Positions 3,137 through 29,036 of a DNA stretch of 31,446 nucleotides are shown one piece after another. How positions within the stretch are numbered: the first letter of the stretch is position 1; the number at the start of each line of letters is the position of its first letter. The position numbers and the translations under genes are program-made. Source of the stretch: a virus; the IMG/VR virus record IMGVR_UViG_3300038701_001325, positions 1-31,446 of that record. One strand, 5' to 3'. A model generated the notes under the pieces. That model was given only the letters and a program-made list of their open reading frames with translations. It searched no databases and was not told where the DNA came from.

Positions 3137-3832
3137 TTATTCCCATTGCGATTCCCAGTTCAAACCAAACTTCTCTAAGCACTTATCAATATCGCTAGCT
3201 GCCATTTCAATTCGCTCCATTATTTCTTTATGTGTTTTTTCACAGGCTTCATACTCATAAAAATGAAGTGGCTTAGCTTTGCATCTAGGTTCATACTGCG
3301 CGTAGATAGCCACCTTTGCGCCTGATACAAGCATATTAAACTGACATTGAAGCTCATGCTCTTTTTTGATGTTATCCTGAGCAACAAATTTAACGTAGTT
3401 ACTTGGGTTAAAAGTAGTTTTTATCTCGACAATTTTTACTATGTCGTCGTCATTGTTTATAATTAAACCATCAGGAGAACAGCCATAACGCATAGATTCA
3501 TCACCATAAATAAAGGGCACTTCGATGATTGGCTCTTTGAAGTAGAATTCATACGCAGATCTAGCAGCGTCTTCATGGGTGTTACCCCAATCCAAGGCAG
3601 CGGCAGATATGTTCATTTTCTCTTGTGTGACTATTTGGGAGACTAGCTCAGCAATATAAGTTTTATAAGTCTGTGCTGTTGGCTTCGCCAAAAGCTCTTT
3701 GCATTTTGATCCTGAAATCACGCCTAGCTTTGCTTTGTGCCATTCATCTGACTGTTGAGTAATATCATCTAGGTTAAAACCTAGTTTTGGCTCGATTGTT
3801 TTGTATAGATTTTTTATGTCGGTTAGTTTCAT
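3137..3832 (-). CDS. YqaJ / lambda-Exo-type 5'-3' exonuclease
   Basis: A 231-aa PD-(D/E)XK exonuclease of the YqaJ recombinase family, which digests one strand of linear duplex DNA so that the partner annealing protein can pair it. Motifs: QQSDEWHKAKLGVISGSK at about residues 26-43, WGNTHEDAA at 82-90 (catalytic Glu), GCSPDG at 117-122 (metal-binding Asp), VEIKT at 136-140 (ExK) and LQCQFN at 161-166. I chose the ATG at 3832 because GGAGAAA lies just upstream and the protein then begins MKLTDIKNLY. A longer frame reaching 3895 would only add residues that overlap the HNH gene. It forms a two-component recombination pair with the RecT-type gene, split by an inserted HNH gene. Confidence 0.88.
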   Translation of the reverse strand: MKLTDIKNLYKTIEPKLGFNLDDITQQSDEWHKAKLGVISGSKCKELLAKPTAQTYKTYIAELVSQIVTQEKMNISAAALDWGNTHEDAARSAYEFYFKEPIIEVPFIYGDESMRYGCSPDGLIINNDDDIVKIVEIKTTFNPSNYVKFVAQDNIKKEHELQCQFNMLVSGAKVAIYAQYEPRCKAKPLHFYEYEACEKTHKEIMERIEMAASDIDKCLEKFGLNWESQWE

Positions 3833-4460
3833 TCTTATTTCTCCATGTAAATTTACCAGCTTTTTCAGTAAAAGCTCTTTCCTTTGTCCATCCACGCTTA
3901 AGCCTACATTTTATTAACTCGGTGTTTCCGCCAAGCCTTATAGAGGCTTGCCTAGCAGTTTCTTTATTGTCAAATGGATTTAAGGTAACGTTTCTTCTAT
4001 TTGCGGATTGCTTGCTTTTGCTTATCCAGACACAATTTTCTTTCGAATAGCCCTTGTTGTTATCTACTCTTTCTATAGTGTGATCATTGGAAGGTCTTTT
4101 GCCCATATCTTCAAAAAATTTTATGAAAGAATTTTTCCACTCATCCGACATCACAATTCCTCTTCCACCGTAATTTTTATAGGAATCTAAATTCTTGTTA
4201 TAGCACCTTTGTTTAATTCCGCACCAGATATTGTATTCTGGTGTTTTGTTCATGTTGTGTTTTTCGTATACTTTGAGACCGTTTTTAATTTTATAATGCC
4301 TTAAATTTTTAGATCTTTCTGCGTGGTATTTGTCGCAACATTTTTTGCATGAGGAATAAAAGCCATCCTTTTTGGTTTTATCGCTCCTAAAAAAAGCAGA
4401 TAAATTGTATTCTTTGTACGTAATTTTGCACTTTGAGCATTTTTTAGAATTAATTTTCAT
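3774..4460 (-). CDS. HNH homing endonuclease inserted between recT-like and exonuclease genes
   Basis: A 228-aa free-standing HNH-family endonuclease of a type common in phages. The N-terminus carries two CxxC-like pairs (CSKC near residue 8 and CKKCC near residue 38). The core has TPEYNIWCGIKQRCYN, NYGGRGI and the HTIERVDNNKGYSKENCVW segment with the catalytic His and Asn. A C-terminal segment (TARQASIRLGG, then RGWTKERAF) looks like a DNA-specificity repeat. ATG 4460 has AAGG upstream and overlaps the RecT-type stop by 11 bases. Its 3' end runs 59 bases into the exonuclease gene in another frame. It is a selfish gene, probably cutting phages that lack it. It is not predicted to help recombination. 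Confidence 0.82.
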   Translation of the reverse strand: MKINSKKCSKCKITYKEYNLSAFFRSDKTKKDGFYSSCKKCCDKYHAERSKNLRHYKIKNGLKVYEKHNMNKTPEYNIWCGIKQRCYNKNLDSYKNYGGRGIVMSDEWKNSFIKFFEDMGKRPSNDHTIERVDNNKGYSKENCVWISKSKQSANRRNVTLNPFDNKETARQASIRLGGNTELIKCRLKRGWTKERAFTEKAGKFTWRNKNETNRHKKSIQNNRAKTRF

Positions 4461-5271
4461 CGCCAATATCCTTGGGTAAAAACTGGCTAATTTCAGCTAT
4501 TATTTGGTCGGCTTCAGTAGTTGAAAAATCCTTAATAGCTTCAATGGGTCGGTTAAATTTCCTAGTGGCGTGAGAGCAAACTTCGTCTTCATTTCGTTCA
4601 ATTTTGCCCAAGAGAACCAGTATTTCTTCTAGTTGATACTTTGTAATTGGCTCAAATGGCGGCGAATCAATTCTTACACCCTCTCTGGGTAAGTCATTGG
4701 AACTATATTCAGCAATTTCTATACCGTTAAGAATATCGGCAAACTTTGATTTTATAGCTTGGGTTCTGGCTCTATACCTCATCATAGTTCTTTGGTATCT
4801 ATTCCATGTTGGACTTTTAATTTGCGCCAACTTCATATCATCCAAAGTAAAATAATCTTCTTGAACTATTGGGTCACCCTTTCTTTTTATTCTGCATATT
4901 GCGGCATATGGTATTGCCTTTAGGTTTTTATTTTCTACGCTTATTTTATTCCCATCATCGTCAACCCAAAACTCTTCTATCTCTTCTAACTGTCCAGTTG
5001 ACTGTATAAGACTAAGTGGCAGGTCTCCAAAAATGGCAGGCTTTCCATGAACTACATACATCATCTTAAGCCCCACCATCGGGTCAATCCCTAGCGATTT
5101 GCAGTTTTGAATGGCAATGACGACCTGTTGGGGATTTTTAAACGTATCACTTATCAACCTATTTCTAATAAGCTTATCAGCTAAGACTAACTGGCTTTCG
5201 ATAGTATCAAGTTCAAATTTCCCCTCCTTATTTGTAGTTAATAATTGCTTTGGTTGTAGTTGGTCAGACAT
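4450..5271 (-). CDS. recT: RecT-family single-strand annealing protein
   Basis: A 273-aa RecT-family recombinase, the annealing partner of the YqaJ-type exonuclease. The central segment (FKNPQQVVIAIQNCKSLGIDP, then GLKMMYVVHGKPAIFGDLPL) and the later TWNRYQRTMMRYRARTQAIK are typical of the family fold. The C-terminus is acidic (PKDIGDEN). ATG 5271 is preferred because AAAGGAG lies 6 bases upstream; an in-frame ATG at 5286 would include that ribosome site as coding sequence. The start overlaps the stop of a 40-aa ORF whose own N-terminus also reads MSDQLQ. The pair with the exonuclease would support double-strand-break-dependent phage recombination and concatemer formation. Confidence 0.87.
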   Translation of the reverse strand: MSDQLQPKQLLTTNKEGKFELDTIESQLVLADKLIRNRLISDTFKNPQQVVIAIQNCKSLGIDPMVGLKMMYVVHGKPAIFGDLPLSLIQSTGQLEEIEEFWVDDDGNKISVENKNLKAIPYAAICRIKRKGDPIVQEDYFTLDDMKLAQIKSPTWNRYQRTMMRYRARTQAIKSKFADILNGIEIAEYSSNDLPREGVRIDSPPFEPITKYQLEEILVLLGKIERNEDEVCSHATRKFNRPIEAIKDFSTTEADQIIAEISQFLPKDIGDEN

Positions 5272-6866: not shown

Positions 6867-8090
6867 GTGCGAATAGAATGTAAGTATGACGAGCTAATGC
6901 CTTTAGCTGAAATCGAAAAAAGAATCCATCCAGATAATGAAAATAAACATCCAGATGAGCAGATAAGATCCCTTGCTAAAGTTATTGCTAAAATCGGTAT
7001 CCGTCATTCAATCCATATATCAAAACAGTCAGGAAAGATAGCTGGTGGTCATGGTAGATTTATGGCTTTTAAAAAGCTTGGCTACGATGAAGCGCCTATA
7101 GTTTGGGAAAATTTTAACGACGAGCTAGAAGAGCTAAATTATAGAGCATCGGATAATCTTGGGCAGTATGCAGAGTTCAGCAATGAAGATTATGTTAAAA
7201 ATTTAGAGATAGCTGGTATTGATATTCACGATGTTGACCTTGAAGAATTTGGGGTAATTAATTTTGAATTTCCAGAGGTAGAAACTCTTGAACCTCAGTG
7301 CGATGAAGATGAAGTACCAGAGGTTGAGAATCCAATTACTCGCAGGGGTGATATTTGGTTGCTTGGAAATCACAGGTTGATGTGTGGCGATTCAACAATG
7401 ATTGATGATGTTGAAAAGCTAATGAATGGTGAGAAGGCTGATATGGTTTATACTGACCCACCTTATGGTATGAAGCTGGATGTTGATTACGATAAAATGT
7501 TTAAAGATGATTCGCACAAAAACAAAGGCGATAGATTTGAAAAAGTAATCGCAGATGATAGCTATTTCGATCCTACTGATATTCTAGCAATAACAGACCA
7601 TGTAAAAGAAGTCTGGCTATGGGGCGCAGATTATTTTTACGATTCACTACCTCGTGGAGGTTCTCTTTGTGCATGGGATAAAAGAAATGAGAATTTAGAT
7701 AAAGTTGTAGGAAACACAACTGAATACCTTTGGAGCAAAACACCTCACAGGAGAATGACAGCAAGGGTGCTTTGGAGCGGTCATCATGGTATGGGTAAGG
7801 ACGATGATAAAAAAAGAGTTCATCCTACACAGAAGCCAATAACGCTGCATGATTGGTTTTTTGAAAATTTTGGTAGCAAGCATAAAAAGATTCTAGATTT
7901 ATTCGGTGGCAGTGGTAGCTGTTTAGTTGCGTGTGAAAAACATAATAAAGAAAACTACTCAATGGAACTTGATGAAAAATACTGCGATGTAATAATTAAT
8001 CGCTGGCAAAATTACACGGGCAAAAAAGCGACGCTAGAGTCAACTGGTCAAACCTATGAAGAACTAAAACAGGAGCGTGAAGATGTCTGA
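6867..8090 (+). CDS. ParB-domain / beta-class DNA methyltransferase fusion
   Basis: A 407-aa two-domain protein. Residues about 10-110 are a ParB/Sulfiredoxin-like nuclease-type domain (IRSLAKVIAKIGIRHSIHI, then GKIAGGHGRFMAFKKLG). Residues about 160-390 are an amino-methyltransferase: DPPY motif IV at 197-200 comes before the SAM-binding DLFGGSGS motif I at 344-351, the order of beta-class enzymes, with HPTQKP in between. It modifies adenine N6 or cytosine N4 in DNA; the target sequence cannot be read off. The gene starts with GTG, 8 bases after AAGGAG. Its 3' end overlaps the small terminase gene. This fusion is often found next to phage packaging genes, so it may protect phage DNA or mark it. 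Confidence 0.88.
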   Translation: MRIECKYDELMPLAEIEKRIHPDNENKHPDEQIRSLAKVIAKIGIRHSIHISKQSGKIAGGHGRFMAFKKLGYDEAPIVWENFNDELEELNYRASDNLGQYAEFSNEDYVKNLEIAGIDIHDVDLEEFGVINFEFPEVETLEPQCDEDEVPEVENPITRRGDIWLLGNHRLMCGDSTMIDDVEKLMNGEKADMVYTDPPYGMKLDVDYDKMFKDDSHKNKGDRFEKVIADDSYFDPTDILAITDHVKEVWLWGADYFYDSLPRGGSLCAWDKRNENLDKVVGNTTEYLWSKTPHRRMTARVLWSGHHGMGKDDDKKRVHPTQKPITLHDWFFENFGSKHKKILDLFGGSGSCLVACEKHNKENYSMELDEKYCDVIINRWQNYTGKKATLESTGQTYEELKQEREDV

Positions 8091-8451
8091 CAATAAGCAA
8101 AAGAATTATGATCCCGACAAAGCTCCTTTCTCATGGGATAAATTAGATGGTCTATTGGCATACAAATCAAGCCTAGTTGTTTGTGCTGATATTTTAGATT
8201 GCCACGAAAATACAATAAAAAATCATATCAAAAAGCGCTATGGTGTGACTTTTACTGAGTATGCAGATAAAAAGCTATCTCGCACAAAGGTTAAGTTAGT
8301 TCAAAAAGCTATTGAGTCAGCAATGTCAGGGAATACTACGATGCATATTTTCTGTCTTAAAAACATTTGTAAATGGTCTGACAACAATGATTCTCAAGTT
8401 GATATTGGTAAGATTGAAATAAACATAGATAAAGAAGATGCTAATTTATGA
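8083..8451 (+). CDS. terS: Terminase small subunit
   Basis: A 122-aa protein with an N-terminal helix-turn-helix-like region (VVCADILDCHENTIKNHIKKRYG, about residues 28-50), a basic mid-region, the typical terminase-small phrase CLKNICKWSDN near residues 95-105 and a acidic tail. ATG 8083 is chosen because AGGAG stands 7 bases upstream; a GTG two codons earlier is less likely. It overlaps the methyltransferase stop by 8 bases and is followed at once by the large subunit. Role: binds phage DNA and directs packaging by the motor. The identity rests on HTH plus position next to the large subunit. Confidence 0.8.
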   Translation: MSDNKQKNYDPDKAPFSWDKLDGLLAYKSSLVVCADILDCHENTIKNHIKKRYGVTFTEYADKKLSRTKVKLVQKAIESAMSGNTTMHIFCLKNICKWSDNNDSQVDIGKIEINIDKEDANL

Positions 8452-8478: not shown

Positions 8479-9741
8479 TTGGCGTCAAACATAGGTTTTC
8501 AAAAGACACAAAAACAAAAGGAGGCTATCCCTTTACTTAGTAGCAAAAAATATGCAGCTTTGTATGGGGGGTCTTGATCTAGGTCAGGTAAAACTTTTAT
8601 TATTGTTTATGCCTTAATAATCCGAGCATCTAGGGAAAAATCTCGACATGTAATTGTCAGGCGAACATTTGCATCGGTTAAAAGATCAATCTTTTTAGAT
8701 ACTCTGCCGAAAGTCTTGTCTATTTGCTTTCCTGACTTACCTGTAAAATGGAATAAAACCGACTACTATATAACTCTACCAAATGGAAGTGAGATTTGGC
8801 TTGCTGGGCTTGATGACTCTCGTGTAGAGAAAATTTTGGGAATGGAATTCAGCACAATTTACTTTAATGAAGCATCAGAGCTGGATTATCAGCCTATGCA
8901 GACGGTGATATCAAGACTTGCACAGAAAAATAATTTAAAGAAAAAGATATTCTTTGACTTTAATCCGCCAAATAAGACGCATTGGAGCTATTGGCTTTTT
9001 ATAAAGAAACTAGACCCCATTGATGATGAGCCGCTAGATAATGCTGATGAGTACGGATATCTATTAATAAACCCAAAGGATAACCTAGAAAATATTGATC
9101 CCGAATACTTAAAGATACTTGAAAGGATGCCACAGGCTGACAGGGAAAGATTTCTTGAGGGTAAATTCTCTGACAACTCTGACGGACAGGCATATTACTC
9201 ATTTAACAGAGAGATTCATGTTAAAGAAATAAAAAGGACACAAGGTCAAGTATTTGTCGGCATGGATTTTAATGTCCAACCGATGACCGCAGTAGTTTGC
9301 CAGGTAGTTAATAATAAGTTTTATATATTTGACGAGGTCTATCTCAATAACAGTGACACCTTCAAAATGGTGGCTGAGCTTAAAAAGAGAAATTACTTTG
9401 GCACTTGTATTCCTGACTCAACAGGTAAGAATAGAAAAACATCAGGTAAATCGGATCACTTAATACTCAAAGAGGCTGGATTTCAGATACCATCCGTTAG
9501 GAATCCATTCGTAACAGATAGGGTAAATAACGTGAATAGACTATTTACAGATAACAGGATTATAATAGACCCTAGATGCAAAAAGCTTATTAACGATTTG
9601 GAAAAAGTTTCATGGAAGGATAACAAGTTGGATCAAAAAACAGACCCCAATTTAACACACATATCTGACGCTATGGGATATCTTACTTGGTGGTTAGATC
9701 CATTAAAGAGTAAGCAAACTTCTGACGCAAGTTTTTCGTAA
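8479..9741 (+). CDS. terL: Terminase large subunit with an in-frame UGA inside Walker A
   Basis: The packaging motor ATPase/nuclease. The frame is open from a TTG start at 8479 (AGAGGT upstream; M-A-S-N-I-G-F) to 9741, except for one TGA at codon 33 (8575-8577). Around it the sequence reads GGS-stop-SRSGKT, whereas related terminases read GGSRSGKTF. ATPase features follow (HVIVRRTF, then ILGMEFSTIYFNEASE as Walker B). The nuclease part has VGMDFNVQP, DSTGKNRKTSGKSDHL and HISDAMGYLTWW. Without the first 33 codons no ATG restart exists; the next plausible start is TTG 8716, which would lack Walker A. The rest of the gene shows no decay. The stop may be bypassed, may be a mutation, or may be an assembly error. 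The identity of the gene is nearly certain. Confidence 0.9.
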
Positions 9742-25875: not shown

Positions 25876-28439
25876 TGGCAAATACCTATGCTGATTTTCA
25901 AGCAAAAACCAGATCATCAAAGATATTATTGTGTCACATTGAGCCTAAGCAGCGGCTTTCTGTTTTTACCCTTGAGTCTGGAAGCATCTATAAAAAGTCA
26001 GTAAATTACGTTGTCGTAAATATAAAAGAAAATGGCACAAGTCTAACAGAGGCTAGTAGCTCATCTTTAAGCTCAGGAGAATGGTACTATGATAACATTA
26101 GCGGTGATCTCTATGTTAATACCAGTGAAGATTCTAATCCTAGCTCTAAAACTATCATCGCCACGTACAGGCTATTCTTCTCTAATAGACCTATTGATTT
26201 ACCTTATGATCTTAACTCTGGCTTTGATGTTCATTACGAAGGGCGAATAAGCTCAACTTCCCCAATAAAAAAACAGCTTGATTATGAGCAAATAGGAGTG
26301 GTTTTAGAGTCGTCCACAAATGTTAAACTCGAAAATACTGACGGTTACTTTGATGAGTTTTATGATGTCTTAATTTTTGAGAATTCAAAAATTGAGCTTT
26401 ATAGCTTTAGTGAAATATTACCTCTATCTGAAAAGAAAAAATTATTTAGCGGTATTGTACAGGATAAAAATTTTAGCGAATCATCTGTTACTTTTCAATG
26501 CAAAGACGATCTTTATAAGCTTAGAGAACTTGTGCAGCTTGAAAATTTTACCTCTAGTGATGGTAACGTCCCAGAGAGGTTTTTAAATAAGCCCAAAAGA
26601 AGAGTTTATGGTAGACATGACCAACTTCAATGCGTCCCTATTGATTCAATACTGGATGGATTTGAGCTTACTGGCACTGTTTCTGGTACATCAGGCTCAG
26701 CAACACTAACAGGCACTGGCACAGCATTTTTAGATGAGTGCTCACCAGAGGATGACTTATTTTTTGATGACGGTTCACAGGTTTTTAGATTTGGAATAAA
26801 AACAGTTGATTCAGACACACAAATAACATTAAACGAAAATCTAGACATTAATGTTAGCGGAAGCCTGACAATAAATCCCAAAATACCTTGGAGAAAAAAG
26901 AATAGAAACTGGCATATAGCAGGGCACAAACTTAGATCACCATCAACCACCGTTAGAATTGCCACAAGCTCCAGAAGGTTTAACTTAGATGACCCTAGTG
27001 ACTTCTTGGATGGCGATTTAATAAACTTAAATGGTACAAACGTATTTATATCCACTATTGTTGGTGACTTCGTAACGCTAACCGCAGCATTTCCTAGCGG
27101 CATTGTGCCTCTAAATGCACCTGTAACTAAAAACCCACTAACCAGAGTATTTCTTGATGGTAGGGAGGTTTTTATTGATAGAGACTGGAGCGTTACCAAC
27201 GGAAGCACTGATGCGATTTTAAATCTTGATCCGTTATCTGAGTTTAACATAGCCCAAGCCGTTGATATAAACCTAACTATAGATTTCACCAATGCAAGCA
27301 GGACTATAACTATAAATGGAGCTGATTTTACATCTCAGCTACAAACTAGAGACTGGATAAGAAGTGATGATATTAATCACACTACTTGGTATGAAGTCTT
27401 AGACGTTCAATATGACGAGGTTGCAAATGACACAACCGTTACAATAAGAACAGCCTACGCAGGATCTACTACTTCAACAAATGGTCAAAAGAAAAATGTT
27501 CAAATCGTAGATGACAGATCAATTATAACTGTTAACTGCATTGGTAAAGAGGACTCAAACGGAAAGTGGATAAGAACGGCTAGCGATGCCGTTGAGGATT
27601 TACTTACTGGTGACGCTCAGTTAACAAACATTAATACCTCATCATTTACAGAATCAAAAGAAGATGCTTTTTATACTCTAAGCTACAAAATACCAGAGCA
27701 GATAGGTGGAAGCTCAAGAGTTATAAGAGAAGTAATTAACGAAATAAATAGGTCAGTTATTGGATCGCTAGTTATTGATGATGACCAAAATTTCAAGCAC
27801 GAAGTTTTATCTCCAAAAAAACCTGCTGATACTCAAACCTTAACAGACTCAGACATTTTGCGTATTTCTTCAATATCTTCAAAAAATGAAATAATAAGAA
27901 AAGTAATTGCATCGTATAGATTTTTTGCAGATAAATTCACAGGCGACAGATCAAGGCTTCTTTACGAGTTTACCAATCAATTTGTTGATGATCTTGTTGG
28001 GTCTAATAGGGAGCTTGAATTGGATCTGTTTTTATACGAGCTTGAAGATGCTACTGTAATAGCTCAAAGGTATGCTTTTTTTAACTCACTTAGTCAATCA
28101 ATCATTACTTTAAAGGGTAAGCTCAACCTAGGTCAGTTCACCATTAACGATAAGGTCATATTGAGCCTTGACAGGCTATATAAGCGACTTGGAGCTAAAG
28201 ACAGACGCAAGATAGGTATAGTTAACGCAATCACCACAGGGGGCTCTGACGTGTCTCTAACGCTTAGTGATTTAGGTAATATATTCTCCAGAGTGGGCAG
28301 TATCTCCCCTGATGATGCACAAGTATTCTCAAGCGCCCCAGATTCCGAAAAAATAGTCAGCAATTATGTGGTCGACAACTCAACCGAAACTCCAGACACT
28401 AGTAGCGACGCAGAGCTATATAATAATTTAATCGGCTAG
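25875..28439 (+). CDS. Tail tip hub / baseplate-like structural protein
   Basis: An 854-aa protein with GTG start (AAGG upstream). The N-terminal part (RSSKILLCHIEPKQR, then SGEWYYDNISGDLYVNTSED) and the middle (KKLFSGIVQDKNFSESSVTFQCKDDLYKLRE) resemble tail hub proteins of siphoviruses that receive tube and fibres. A central part has repeated beta segments (GTVSGTSGSATLTGTGTAF). The C-terminus (LGQFTINDKVILSLDRLYKRLG) resembles a domain that closes the hub. It lies after the lysis-type genes, separated from the fibre gene by about 1.1 kb, which is an unusual order. The stop overlaps the end of the opposite HNH gene by 12 bases. Confidence 0.6.
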   Translation: MANTYADFQAKTRSSKILLCHIEPKQRLSVFTLESGSIYKKSVNYVVVNIKENGTSLTEASSSSLSSGEWYYDNISGDLYVNTSEDSNPSSKTIIATYRLFFSNRPIDLPYDLNSGFDVHYEGRISSTSPIKKQLDYEQIGVVLESSTNVKLENTDGYFDEFYDVLIFENSKIELYSFSEILPLSEKKKLFSGIVQDKNFSESSVTFQCKDDLYKLRELVQLENFTSSDGNVPERFLNKPKRRVYGRHDQLQCVPIDSILDGFELTGTVSGTSGSATLTGTGTAFLDECSPEDDLFFDDGSQVFRFGIKTVDSDTQITLNENLDINVSGSLTINPKIPWRKKNRNWHIAGHKLRSPSTTVRIATSSRRFNLDDPSDFLDGDLINLNGTNVFISTIVGDFVTLTAAFPSGIVPLNAPVTKNPLTRVFLDGREVFIDRDWSVTNGSTDAILNLDPLSEFNIAQAVDINLTIDFTNASRTITINGADFTSQLQTRDWIRSDDINHTTWYEVLDVQYDEVANDTTVTIRTAYAGSTTSTNGQKKNVQIVDDRSIITVNCIGKEDSNGKWIRTASDAVEDLLTGDAQLTNINTSSFTESKEDAFYTLSYKIPEQIGGSSRVIREVINEINRSVIGSLVIDDDQNFKHEVLSPKKPADTQTLTDSDILRISSISSKNEIIRKVIASYRFFADKFTGDRSRLLYEFTNQFVDDLVGSNRELELDLFLYELEDATVIAQRYAFFNSLSQSIITLKGKLNLGQFTINDKVILSLDRLYKRLGAKDRRKIGIVNAITTGGSDVSLTLSDLGNIFSRVGSISPDDAQVFSSAPDSEKIVSNYVVDNSTETPDTSSDAELYNNLIG

Positions 28440-28973
28440 ATCAACGTGCTTCCAAGTTTTTCTTTGGAGTATATCTGATATGGCATTGGTCTGAACTCCG
28501 TATATCAGTGCTATTTTACTCATTGAAATAAATTTTGCCATCTTAAATATTATTTTTATATCGTGCTCAATAAATTTGGCGTTACCGTGGTCTGATCCAG
28601 TTACACTTCTCGCCAATCCCGTTAAAAGTGCGTGATTTCTGTTCTCGGCAGCAGTGCACCATTCTAGGTTTTTCAGGTTGTTATTGCTTTTGCAGCCATC
28701 TTTGTGGTTAATACATGGAAGCTCATATTCATTTAATAAAAAAGCAGTAGCCACCAACCTATGTACATAATATCTTCTTTTTTTGCTCTCTTTGGTTAGC
28801 CCAACAACCTTGTAACCTCTGCAATCTGATTGTTTCATTATTATTTCATTCAATTTTGTATGATTTACATCACCCTTTTTTCTTATTATTCTTTCTAGCC
28901 TTTTAATTCTAGCCCTATTGCTAACCTGATAAATTCCCTCGTAACCCTTAATGTCCTTCCATATTTCTTTCAT
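28428..28973 (-). CDS. NUMOD4-HNH homing endonuclease, antisense to late genes
   Basis: A 181-aa protein on the strand opposite to the late operon. NUMOD4 (EIWKDIKGYEGIYQVSNRARIKRL) at residues 2-26, then a HNH core with YYVHRLVATAFL, INHKDGCKSNNNLKNLEWCT and AENRNHA, and a C-terminal helix-turn-helix-like part (MSKIALIYGVQTNAISDILQRK). The His-Asn-His residues are visible. ATG 28973 is chosen; an in-frame TTG at 28982 is less likely. No clear Shine-Dalgarno. It is a mobile gene that spreads by cutting phages without it. Confidence 0.85.
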   Translation of the reverse strand: MKEIWKDIKGYEGIYQVSNRARIKRLERIIRKKGDVNHTKLNEIIMKQSDCRGYKVVGLTKESKKRRYYVHRLVATAFLLNEYELPCINHKDGCKSNNNLKNLEWCTAAENRNHALLTGLARSVTGSDHGNAKFIEHDIKIIFKMAKFISMSKIALIYGVQTNAISDILQRKTWKHVDLAD

Positions 28974-29036
28974 ATTGTACAAATAACAAAAAATGTTGAT
29001 AAAATTAACACGATTGTAAATAATACAAGGAACGCT

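Follow-up and report, generated by a model that had tools for sequence, protein, structure and literature searches.

A candidate minimal stop-hop in the Walker A codons of phage large terminase genes, probably carried as part of a homing cassette

The window, by which we mean the whole stretch of DNA analysed here, is a 31,446-base virus record from IMG/VR (IMGVR_UViG_3300038701_001325). It contains a large terminase gene, terL, in its usual genomic place (Table 1). The gene begins with a TTG start codon and extends over 421 codons, counting the final stop, in a single open frame whose sole interruption is an internal TGA. A PHROG match identified the product as terminase large subunit (1e-32), the part following the stop matched Pfam PF04466 (1.2e-20), and both halves of the interrupted gene thus belong to one large terminase. 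The terS-like gene directly upstream had no PHROG match. The gene preceding it (6867-8087) combines a ParB-like and a DNA methyltransferase domain, with PHROG matches to both. Besides the distant NUMOD4-HNH_3 endonuclease gene, a second HNH-like gene with PHROG matches and no Pfam match is located on the minus strand (3774-4466), where it overlaps the start of the downstream ORF at 3137-3895.

Table 1. Features at the terL locus of the window, and HNH genes in the terS-terL junction of two insert-free relatives (positions in the respective sequence)
Feature	Location	Strand	Evidence
terL, large terminase subunit (Terminase_3 / Terminase_6N), stop in frame at 8575-8577	8479..9741	+	translation, PHROG, Pfam, 64 relatives
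Shine-Dalgarno-like AAGGAGG within coding sequence, -54 to -48 from take-off codon	8518..8524	+	anti-Shine-Dalgarno energy comparison
Stem-loop	8528..8570	+	stable and covarying in 16/16 carriers
Walker A (P-loop) region, GGS-[stop-S]-RSGKT	8566..8595	+	GGSRSGKT-type, insert-free in 77/93 readable relatives
Putative take-off codon TCT (Ser)	8572..8574	+	TCN in 16/16 carriers
In-frame stop TGA, first inserted codon	8575..8577	+	stop in every carrier
Putative landing codon TCT (Ser); decoding would restart at AGG 8581-8583	8578..8580	+	TCN in 15/16 carriers
terS-like gene directly upstream of terL	8077..8451	+	position and C-terminal motif common to relatives
NUMOD4-HNH_3 endonuclease	28428..28982	-	Pfam NUMOD4 5.8e-14, HNH_3 1.6e-7
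Junction HNH gene of insert-free relative L137	2410-2898		
Junction HNH gene of insert-free relative L089	2340-2918		

The codons around the interruption are TAT GGG GGG TCT TGA TCT AGG TCA GGT AAA ACT, and the translation at the Walker A motif is YGGS-*-SRSGKT. The original prediction had described a terL frame that is open except for this TGA, with UCU on both sides, and a six-base difference from GGSRSGKT that can be placed in four ways. Both statements hold exactly at the level of the codons, the two TCT triplets that flank the stop forming a 3-base direct repeat. As explanations it had offered a short bypass from UCU to UCU, a scar left by an intron or intein, a killed gene and an assembly error, and it had proposed a search of terL homologues for the same insertion.

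We ran this search on a panel of 95 distinct terL sequences made up of IMG/VR relatives, one GTDB MAG contig and the window. The Walker A site was readable in 93 of them, and 77 of these lacked an insert and read a GGSRSGKT-type motif, as had been expected of related terminases. The other 16 (15 viral contigs, the window included, and one bacterial MAG contig) carried an insert at the identical place, a recurrence well beyond chance, so that with 15 further carriers the stop is not unique to this assembly. The insert consists of a stop plus 3 nt (6 bases) in 13 carriers and of a stop plus 4 nt (7 bases) in the remaining three. Thirteen metagenome data sets and one MAG contributed carriers; the same element was present in two metagenome data sets, as L005 and L006. 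A search of one genome per species returned a single carrier, a contig of a Bdellovibrionales MAG, and the 16 relatives that a second, alignment-based scan contributed were all without the insert. The MAG contig (L149, JAGRAG010000058.1) was the sole bacterial-genome match with the insert, and the terL match on it is in two pieces; it may stem from a phage binned along with the bacterium, and Bdellovibrionales would then be no more than a hint to the host. An exact DNA search with the window's own motif gave no other occurrence. No insert was present among the cultured relatives inspected (best identity 43%), and the terL of Synechococcus phage Ssp-JY42 is without it. Pattern matches with long spacers in L081, L236 and L238 were chance hits in unrelated sequence and were discarded.

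Within one genome, a stop in an essential motif resembles damage, as expected of a pseudogene, a defective phage or an assembly error. Against this, the same insert recurs in the 13 metagenome data sets and the bacterial MAG, the window holds no second terL copy within its 31,446 bases, and the stem described below covaries. Moreover, dN/dS after the stop was 0.03-0.07 in pairs of close relatives of which one or both carry the insert (L003/L004, both carriers, 0.07; L008/L013, 0.05; L024/L032, 0.04; L079/L154, 0.03), indicating strong purifying selection. Conservation, dN/dS and the covarying RNA signals rule out the earlier options of a killed gene and of an assembly error, and we assign this explanation a practically negligible probability. 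The insert appears to behave as a maintained recoding element and not as a dead scar.

The first inserted codon is a stop in all 16 carriers, and TGA, TAG and TAA all occur. In the 6-base inserts the stop is followed by TCN, with TTT in its place in L018 only. The 7-base inserts read TGAC-TCT in L051 and L147 and TGAA-TCA in L079, and they shift the following frame by one. The codon preceding the stop is TCN in every carrier; insert-free relatives use AGY too. The triplet that would serve for landing is UCN in 15/16 carriers and UUU in L018 (TCG to TTT), and take-off and landing codons are identical in just five of the 16. In each carrier, a forward shift of 6 or 7 nt from the UCN codon onto this triplet would give exactly GGSRSGKT. 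A pattern scan of IMG/VR that left two inserted codons free found no sense codon at this place in any terL, and its other three matches were rejected as unrelated sequences. That only a stop is tolerated here would follow if a sense codon were translated and thereby spoiled the P-loop.

These data show two properties of bypassing in 16/16 carriers: a coding gap whose skipping would restore the protein and a stop that would occupy the A site at take-off. We consider it highly probable that terL contains a minimal programmed bypass (a 'stop-hop'), stimulated by a Shine-Dalgarno sequence and a stem-loop and probably part of a homing cassette. Among the earlier options, the short bypass from UCU to UCU is the one that the further carriers and their RNA signals support best. 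The reading has its difficulties, namely the TTT landing of L018, where G-U pairing is possible, and the non-identical codon pairs. In addition, TerL N-termini look alike in carriers and non-carriers, and no conserved nascent-peptide signal was identified in them.

If a tRNA decoded the stop instead, by readthrough or suppression, the product would remain in frame and read GGSXSRSGKT, with a P-loop two residues longer; the 7-nt forms would need a +1 frameshift, giving GGS[D/E]SRSGKT. The TCT TGA N of these forms does resemble RF2-type +1 shift sites, and the TTT of L018 would be no problem because no landing codon is needed. However, neither one suppressor nor a common readthrough context explains three types of stop, and slippage of tRNA-Ser from UCU to CUU would be poorly paired. 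Furthermore, the length of Walker A is fixed in the 77 insert-free relatives, a sense codon would serve equally well yet was not found, and no tRNA gene was found in the window. We saw neither a single stop used as sense nor a shared context, as a code change would entail, and the 7-base forms are out of frame. We regard readthrough as improbable. Codon reassignment was rejected because all three stops occur at the site, and reinitiation after the stop was rejected because no start codon near the site is common to the carriers.

Micro-splicing, editing or programmed excision that took the six or seven bases out of the RNA or DNA ahead of translation would likewise produce GGSRSGKT, whatever the sequence of the insert. 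Such a process, however, has no need for a stop in first position, for matching UCN codons, for a Shine-Dalgarno sequence or for a stem-loop, and we know of no system that removes so short an insert. It is a very improbable explanation.

Comparison of the sequences preceding the insert points to mRNA stimulators of the kind known from bypassing, a 5' stem-loop and a Shine-Dalgarno-like sequence. The latter is present upstream of the take-off codon in all 16 carriers, mostly as AAGGAGG or a near match that starts 54-60 nt before this codon; in L015, L019 and L149 it lies at about -38 instead. Median anti-Shine-Dalgarno energy was -11.3 in the 16 carriers versus -3.0 in the 77 insert-free relatives (p=3e-9). 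GGAGG occurred in 12/16 carriers versus 3/62 others; elsewhere in terL it was counted over -126 to -66 and +30 to +1000 and was absent from every carrier.

The stem-loop begins directly 3' of the Shine-Dalgarno-like sequence, and its 3' arm is the Tyr/Phe-Gly-Gly coding stretch up to the take-off codon. In the window, the outer 5' arm TCCCT (8528-8532) pairs with GGGGG (8566-8570), and the stem ends one nucleotide (8571) before the take-off codon; its predicted energy is -14.1 kcal/mol (synonymous-shuffle z -2.4). For the 51 nt before the take-off codon, the median was -17.5 kcal/mol in carriers versus -9.4 kcal/mol in insert-free relatives (p=1e-8), energies that assume 37 °C, from which the source temperature may differ. 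Relative to synonymous shuffles, stability had a mean z of -3.2 in carriers and -0.8 in insert-free relatives.

RNAalifold found no common structure on the MAFFT alignment, which is explained by loop lengths that differ between the sequences; the shared stem became visible only once the arms had been aligned by hand. In this alignment 93.8% of the cells were paired, compared with 44-56% when the arms were slid, and the pairs at the Gly wobble position were C-G in seven carriers, G-C in five and A-U in three, with one mismatch. Since an alignment by hand leans towards structure, more weight falls on the arm-swap control, in which each arm re-finds its best partner: among 20,000 permutations of arms between carriers, none was as stable as the native combination.

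Both signals together were found in 16/16 carriers and in 1/77 insert-free relatives (L113; Fisher 4e-17, with cut-offs chosen after the data had been seen). The pair tracks the insert and not the HNH gene described below. The distance from the Shine-Dalgarno-like sequence to the stem-loop is always 2-8 nt, though the size of the loop varies. Unless the stem-loop forms, the Shine-Dalgarno-like sequence is too distant from the decoding site; as it always abuts the stem-loop, folding of the loop would place it beside the take-off codon. Three insert-free relatives (L040, L042 and L138) have a strong GGGGG/CCCTC stem-loop upstream of Walker A and are possibly former carriers.

We infer the hop itself, and the way in which the signals act, from these patterns. 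The ribosome would translate up to the UCN serine codon preceding the stop. The A site would then hold the stop, which is slow to decode, and peptidyl-tRNA-Ser would release the UCN codon and re-pair with the next one, 6 nt downstream (7 nt in three relatives). Skipping the stop together with one serine codon would yield the normal Walker A motif. The stem-loop and the Shine-Dalgarno sequence just 5' of it would stimulate the hop: the loop would refold behind the ribosome, draw the Shine-Dalgarno sequence near, and pull or hold the mRNA forward. Alternatively, the Shine-Dalgarno sequence might delay the following ribosome, leaving time for the loop to form.

On T4 gene 60, forward sliding is promoted by a 5' stem-loop that folds again behind the ribosome (PMC5009743; PMC11194080). 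A distant Shine-Dalgarno sequence is brought within working distance by an RNA structure in T4 genes 25 and 38 (PMC3014915). The terL element differs from gene 60 in several respects. Take-off and landing codons are separated by 3-4 nt in place of a 50-nt coding gap, they specify Ser and not Gly, and the gap is unstructured. Unlike in gene 60, a strong Shine-Dalgarno sequence sits 5' of the stem-loop and no nascent-peptide signal was identified. Finally, the terL insert is found in many phages through repeated gain and loss, in genes that are otherwise intact.

The synthetic stop-hops comprise nine nucleotides (codon, stop and matching codon) and yield one amino acid, as the hop in terL would, but are engineered. 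They reportedly originate from Weiss et al. 1987 (reference 54 of PMC5009743). Such constructs work in E. coli, and a 2016 review considered natural in-frame stop-hopping conceivable, with no occurrences known (PMC5009743). Later reports of a natural stop-hop, or of the terL feature, did not turn up in the literature outside subscription journals.

The insert is scattered over a terL tree built from the part after Walker A (L149 left out): 11 gains or losses are required, of which supported branches account for at least 10. Near-identical terL genes differ in its presence, as in L008/L013 (96.6% protein identity) and L024/L032 (94%). The DNA of L024 and L032 is approximately 85% identical across terS and terL, but identity drops to 55% over the 60 nt that lead to the insert; we read this stretch as a local conversion tract. 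From the position exactly after the insert, L079 and L154 share 95.8% identity over 3.2 kb; upstream of it they are unrelated. This tract and this breakpoint together mark Walker A as a recombination boundary. In the latter pair, terS and the terL N-termini are unrelated, which places a recombination joint (4142 in L079, 1511 in L154) inside an essential gene.

An HNH gene occupies the terS-terL junction in 9/16 carriers compared with 5/60 insert-free relatives that had enough upstream sequence (p=1e-4). The association held when lineages were collapsed (p=2e-5) and when L015 was omitted, leaving eight carriers (p=5e-4). Eight of the junction genes in carriers are of the NUMOD4/HNH_3 type and that of L015 is of another type, according to Pfam and PHROG matches. 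In the remaining seven carriers, which include the window, no HNH gene adjoins terL. The window's junction is empty, and its HNH gene of the same family (1.8e-48 with an HMM of the junction genes) is at the distant site listed in Table 1. The five insert-free relatives with a junction HNH gene represent three lineages. One of these (L022, L025 and L030) has an ordinary Walker A site, and in L089 and L137 the Ser-Arg-Ser codons are rewritten as AGY CGT AGY, perhaps another escape from the nuclease. As is typical of homing cassettes, the NUMOD4/HNH gene sits in an intergenic site and is absent from close relatives, for example in the comparison of L154 with L079. The same motif also hosts a different element, an intein-like insert within Walker A of L101 (~630-1572; GGSR-intein-HN-SGKT).

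The simplest account of these sequence comparisons would be that the Walker A DNA is a homing target and that the insert gives immunity. We infer that the HNH endonuclease encoded between terS and terL recognises and cuts the conserved Walker A DNA. The insert would destroy this target site and confer immunity, and the hop would make it harmless. It would have arisen, and would spread, as part of the homing cassette, and the carriers that lack the nuclease, the window being one, would have lost it. A precedent exists in T4 gene 60, whose gap has been linked to protection from a homing endonuclease (PMC5009743), and the terL insert is probably likewise part of a homing cassette, one that protects Walker A DNA after the fashion of gene 60/mobA. 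With regard to the scar proposed originally, the intein of L101 and the HNH genes of 9/16 carriers support the notion of a mobile-element site; the notion of a remnant fares less well, as the insert behaves as maintained and no intermediate remnant of an intein or intron was seen in insert carriers.

TerL is required in small amounts, and the hop might be real but kept for regulation, with the HNH genes as mere bystanders. It could then set a low or late TerL level, or sense the supply of release factor or serine tRNA. The seven carriers that retain insert, Shine-Dalgarno sequence and stem-loop next to a junction without an HNH gene speak for such a role. However, the insert has come and gone repeatedly between near-identical genes, as suits a mobile or immunity trait better than a conserved control, and the HNH association and the use of the same site by the intein of L101 also speak against regulation. 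We consider a purely regulatory role unlikely, while giving it appreciably more weight than any of the other alternatives.

Free-standing HNH homing endonucleases of the T4 mobA/mobE type (PMC2988022) similarly lie between conserved genes, near a conserved motif, and are absent in close relatives; the terL-junction HNH genes are putative enzymes of this kind, and the junction of the window is empty. The bypass elements of Magnusiomyces capitatus mitochondria are also made harmless through ribosome hopping and have spread through genes (PMC5009743). They are mitochondrial and apparently independent of mRNA context, whereas the terL signals are elaborate and belong to phages.

On balance we favour the view that minimal bypass cassettes (Shine-Dalgarno sequence, refolding stem-loop and UCN-stop-UCN) form a mobile and widespread class that HNH homing endonucleases have repeatedly delivered to terminase Walker A codons. 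If so, in-frame stop-hopping would have its first natural example, and the gene 60/mobA principle a second case, one that recurs, in a field where programmed bypassing in bacterial systems has so far rested mainly on T4 gene 60. The 16 distinct natural versions vary in stop, spacing, codon pair, stem and Shine-Dalgarno sequence and are short enough for one reporter plasmid. With them one can also test the idea that the evolution of translational recoding is driven by homing endonucleases. Phage terminase surveys may miss such terL genes, because gene callers would split or shorten them.

A published bypass candidate in the terL of Hautrevirus, a genus of Streptomyces phages, has been tied to UUA use in Streptomyces. 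In these phages (phiHau3, GreenWeasel and BroPlease) the large terminase P-loop likewise contains an insert between codons of the same box (GGC and GGT). The Hautrevirus insert differs in being 10 nt long (GGC-TTACYCC-GGT) with no stop in the gap, compared with 6 or 7 nt and a stop in the terL described here; the terminase sequence is unrelated and gave no sign of the Shine-Dalgarno plus stem-loop layout. That both inserts fall within the P-loop agrees with a common cause, for example homing. The Hautrevirus loci in our collection are L150 (2329-3995, phiHau3), L233 and L235, and the terL genes of GreenWeasel and BroPlease are annotated as split genes.
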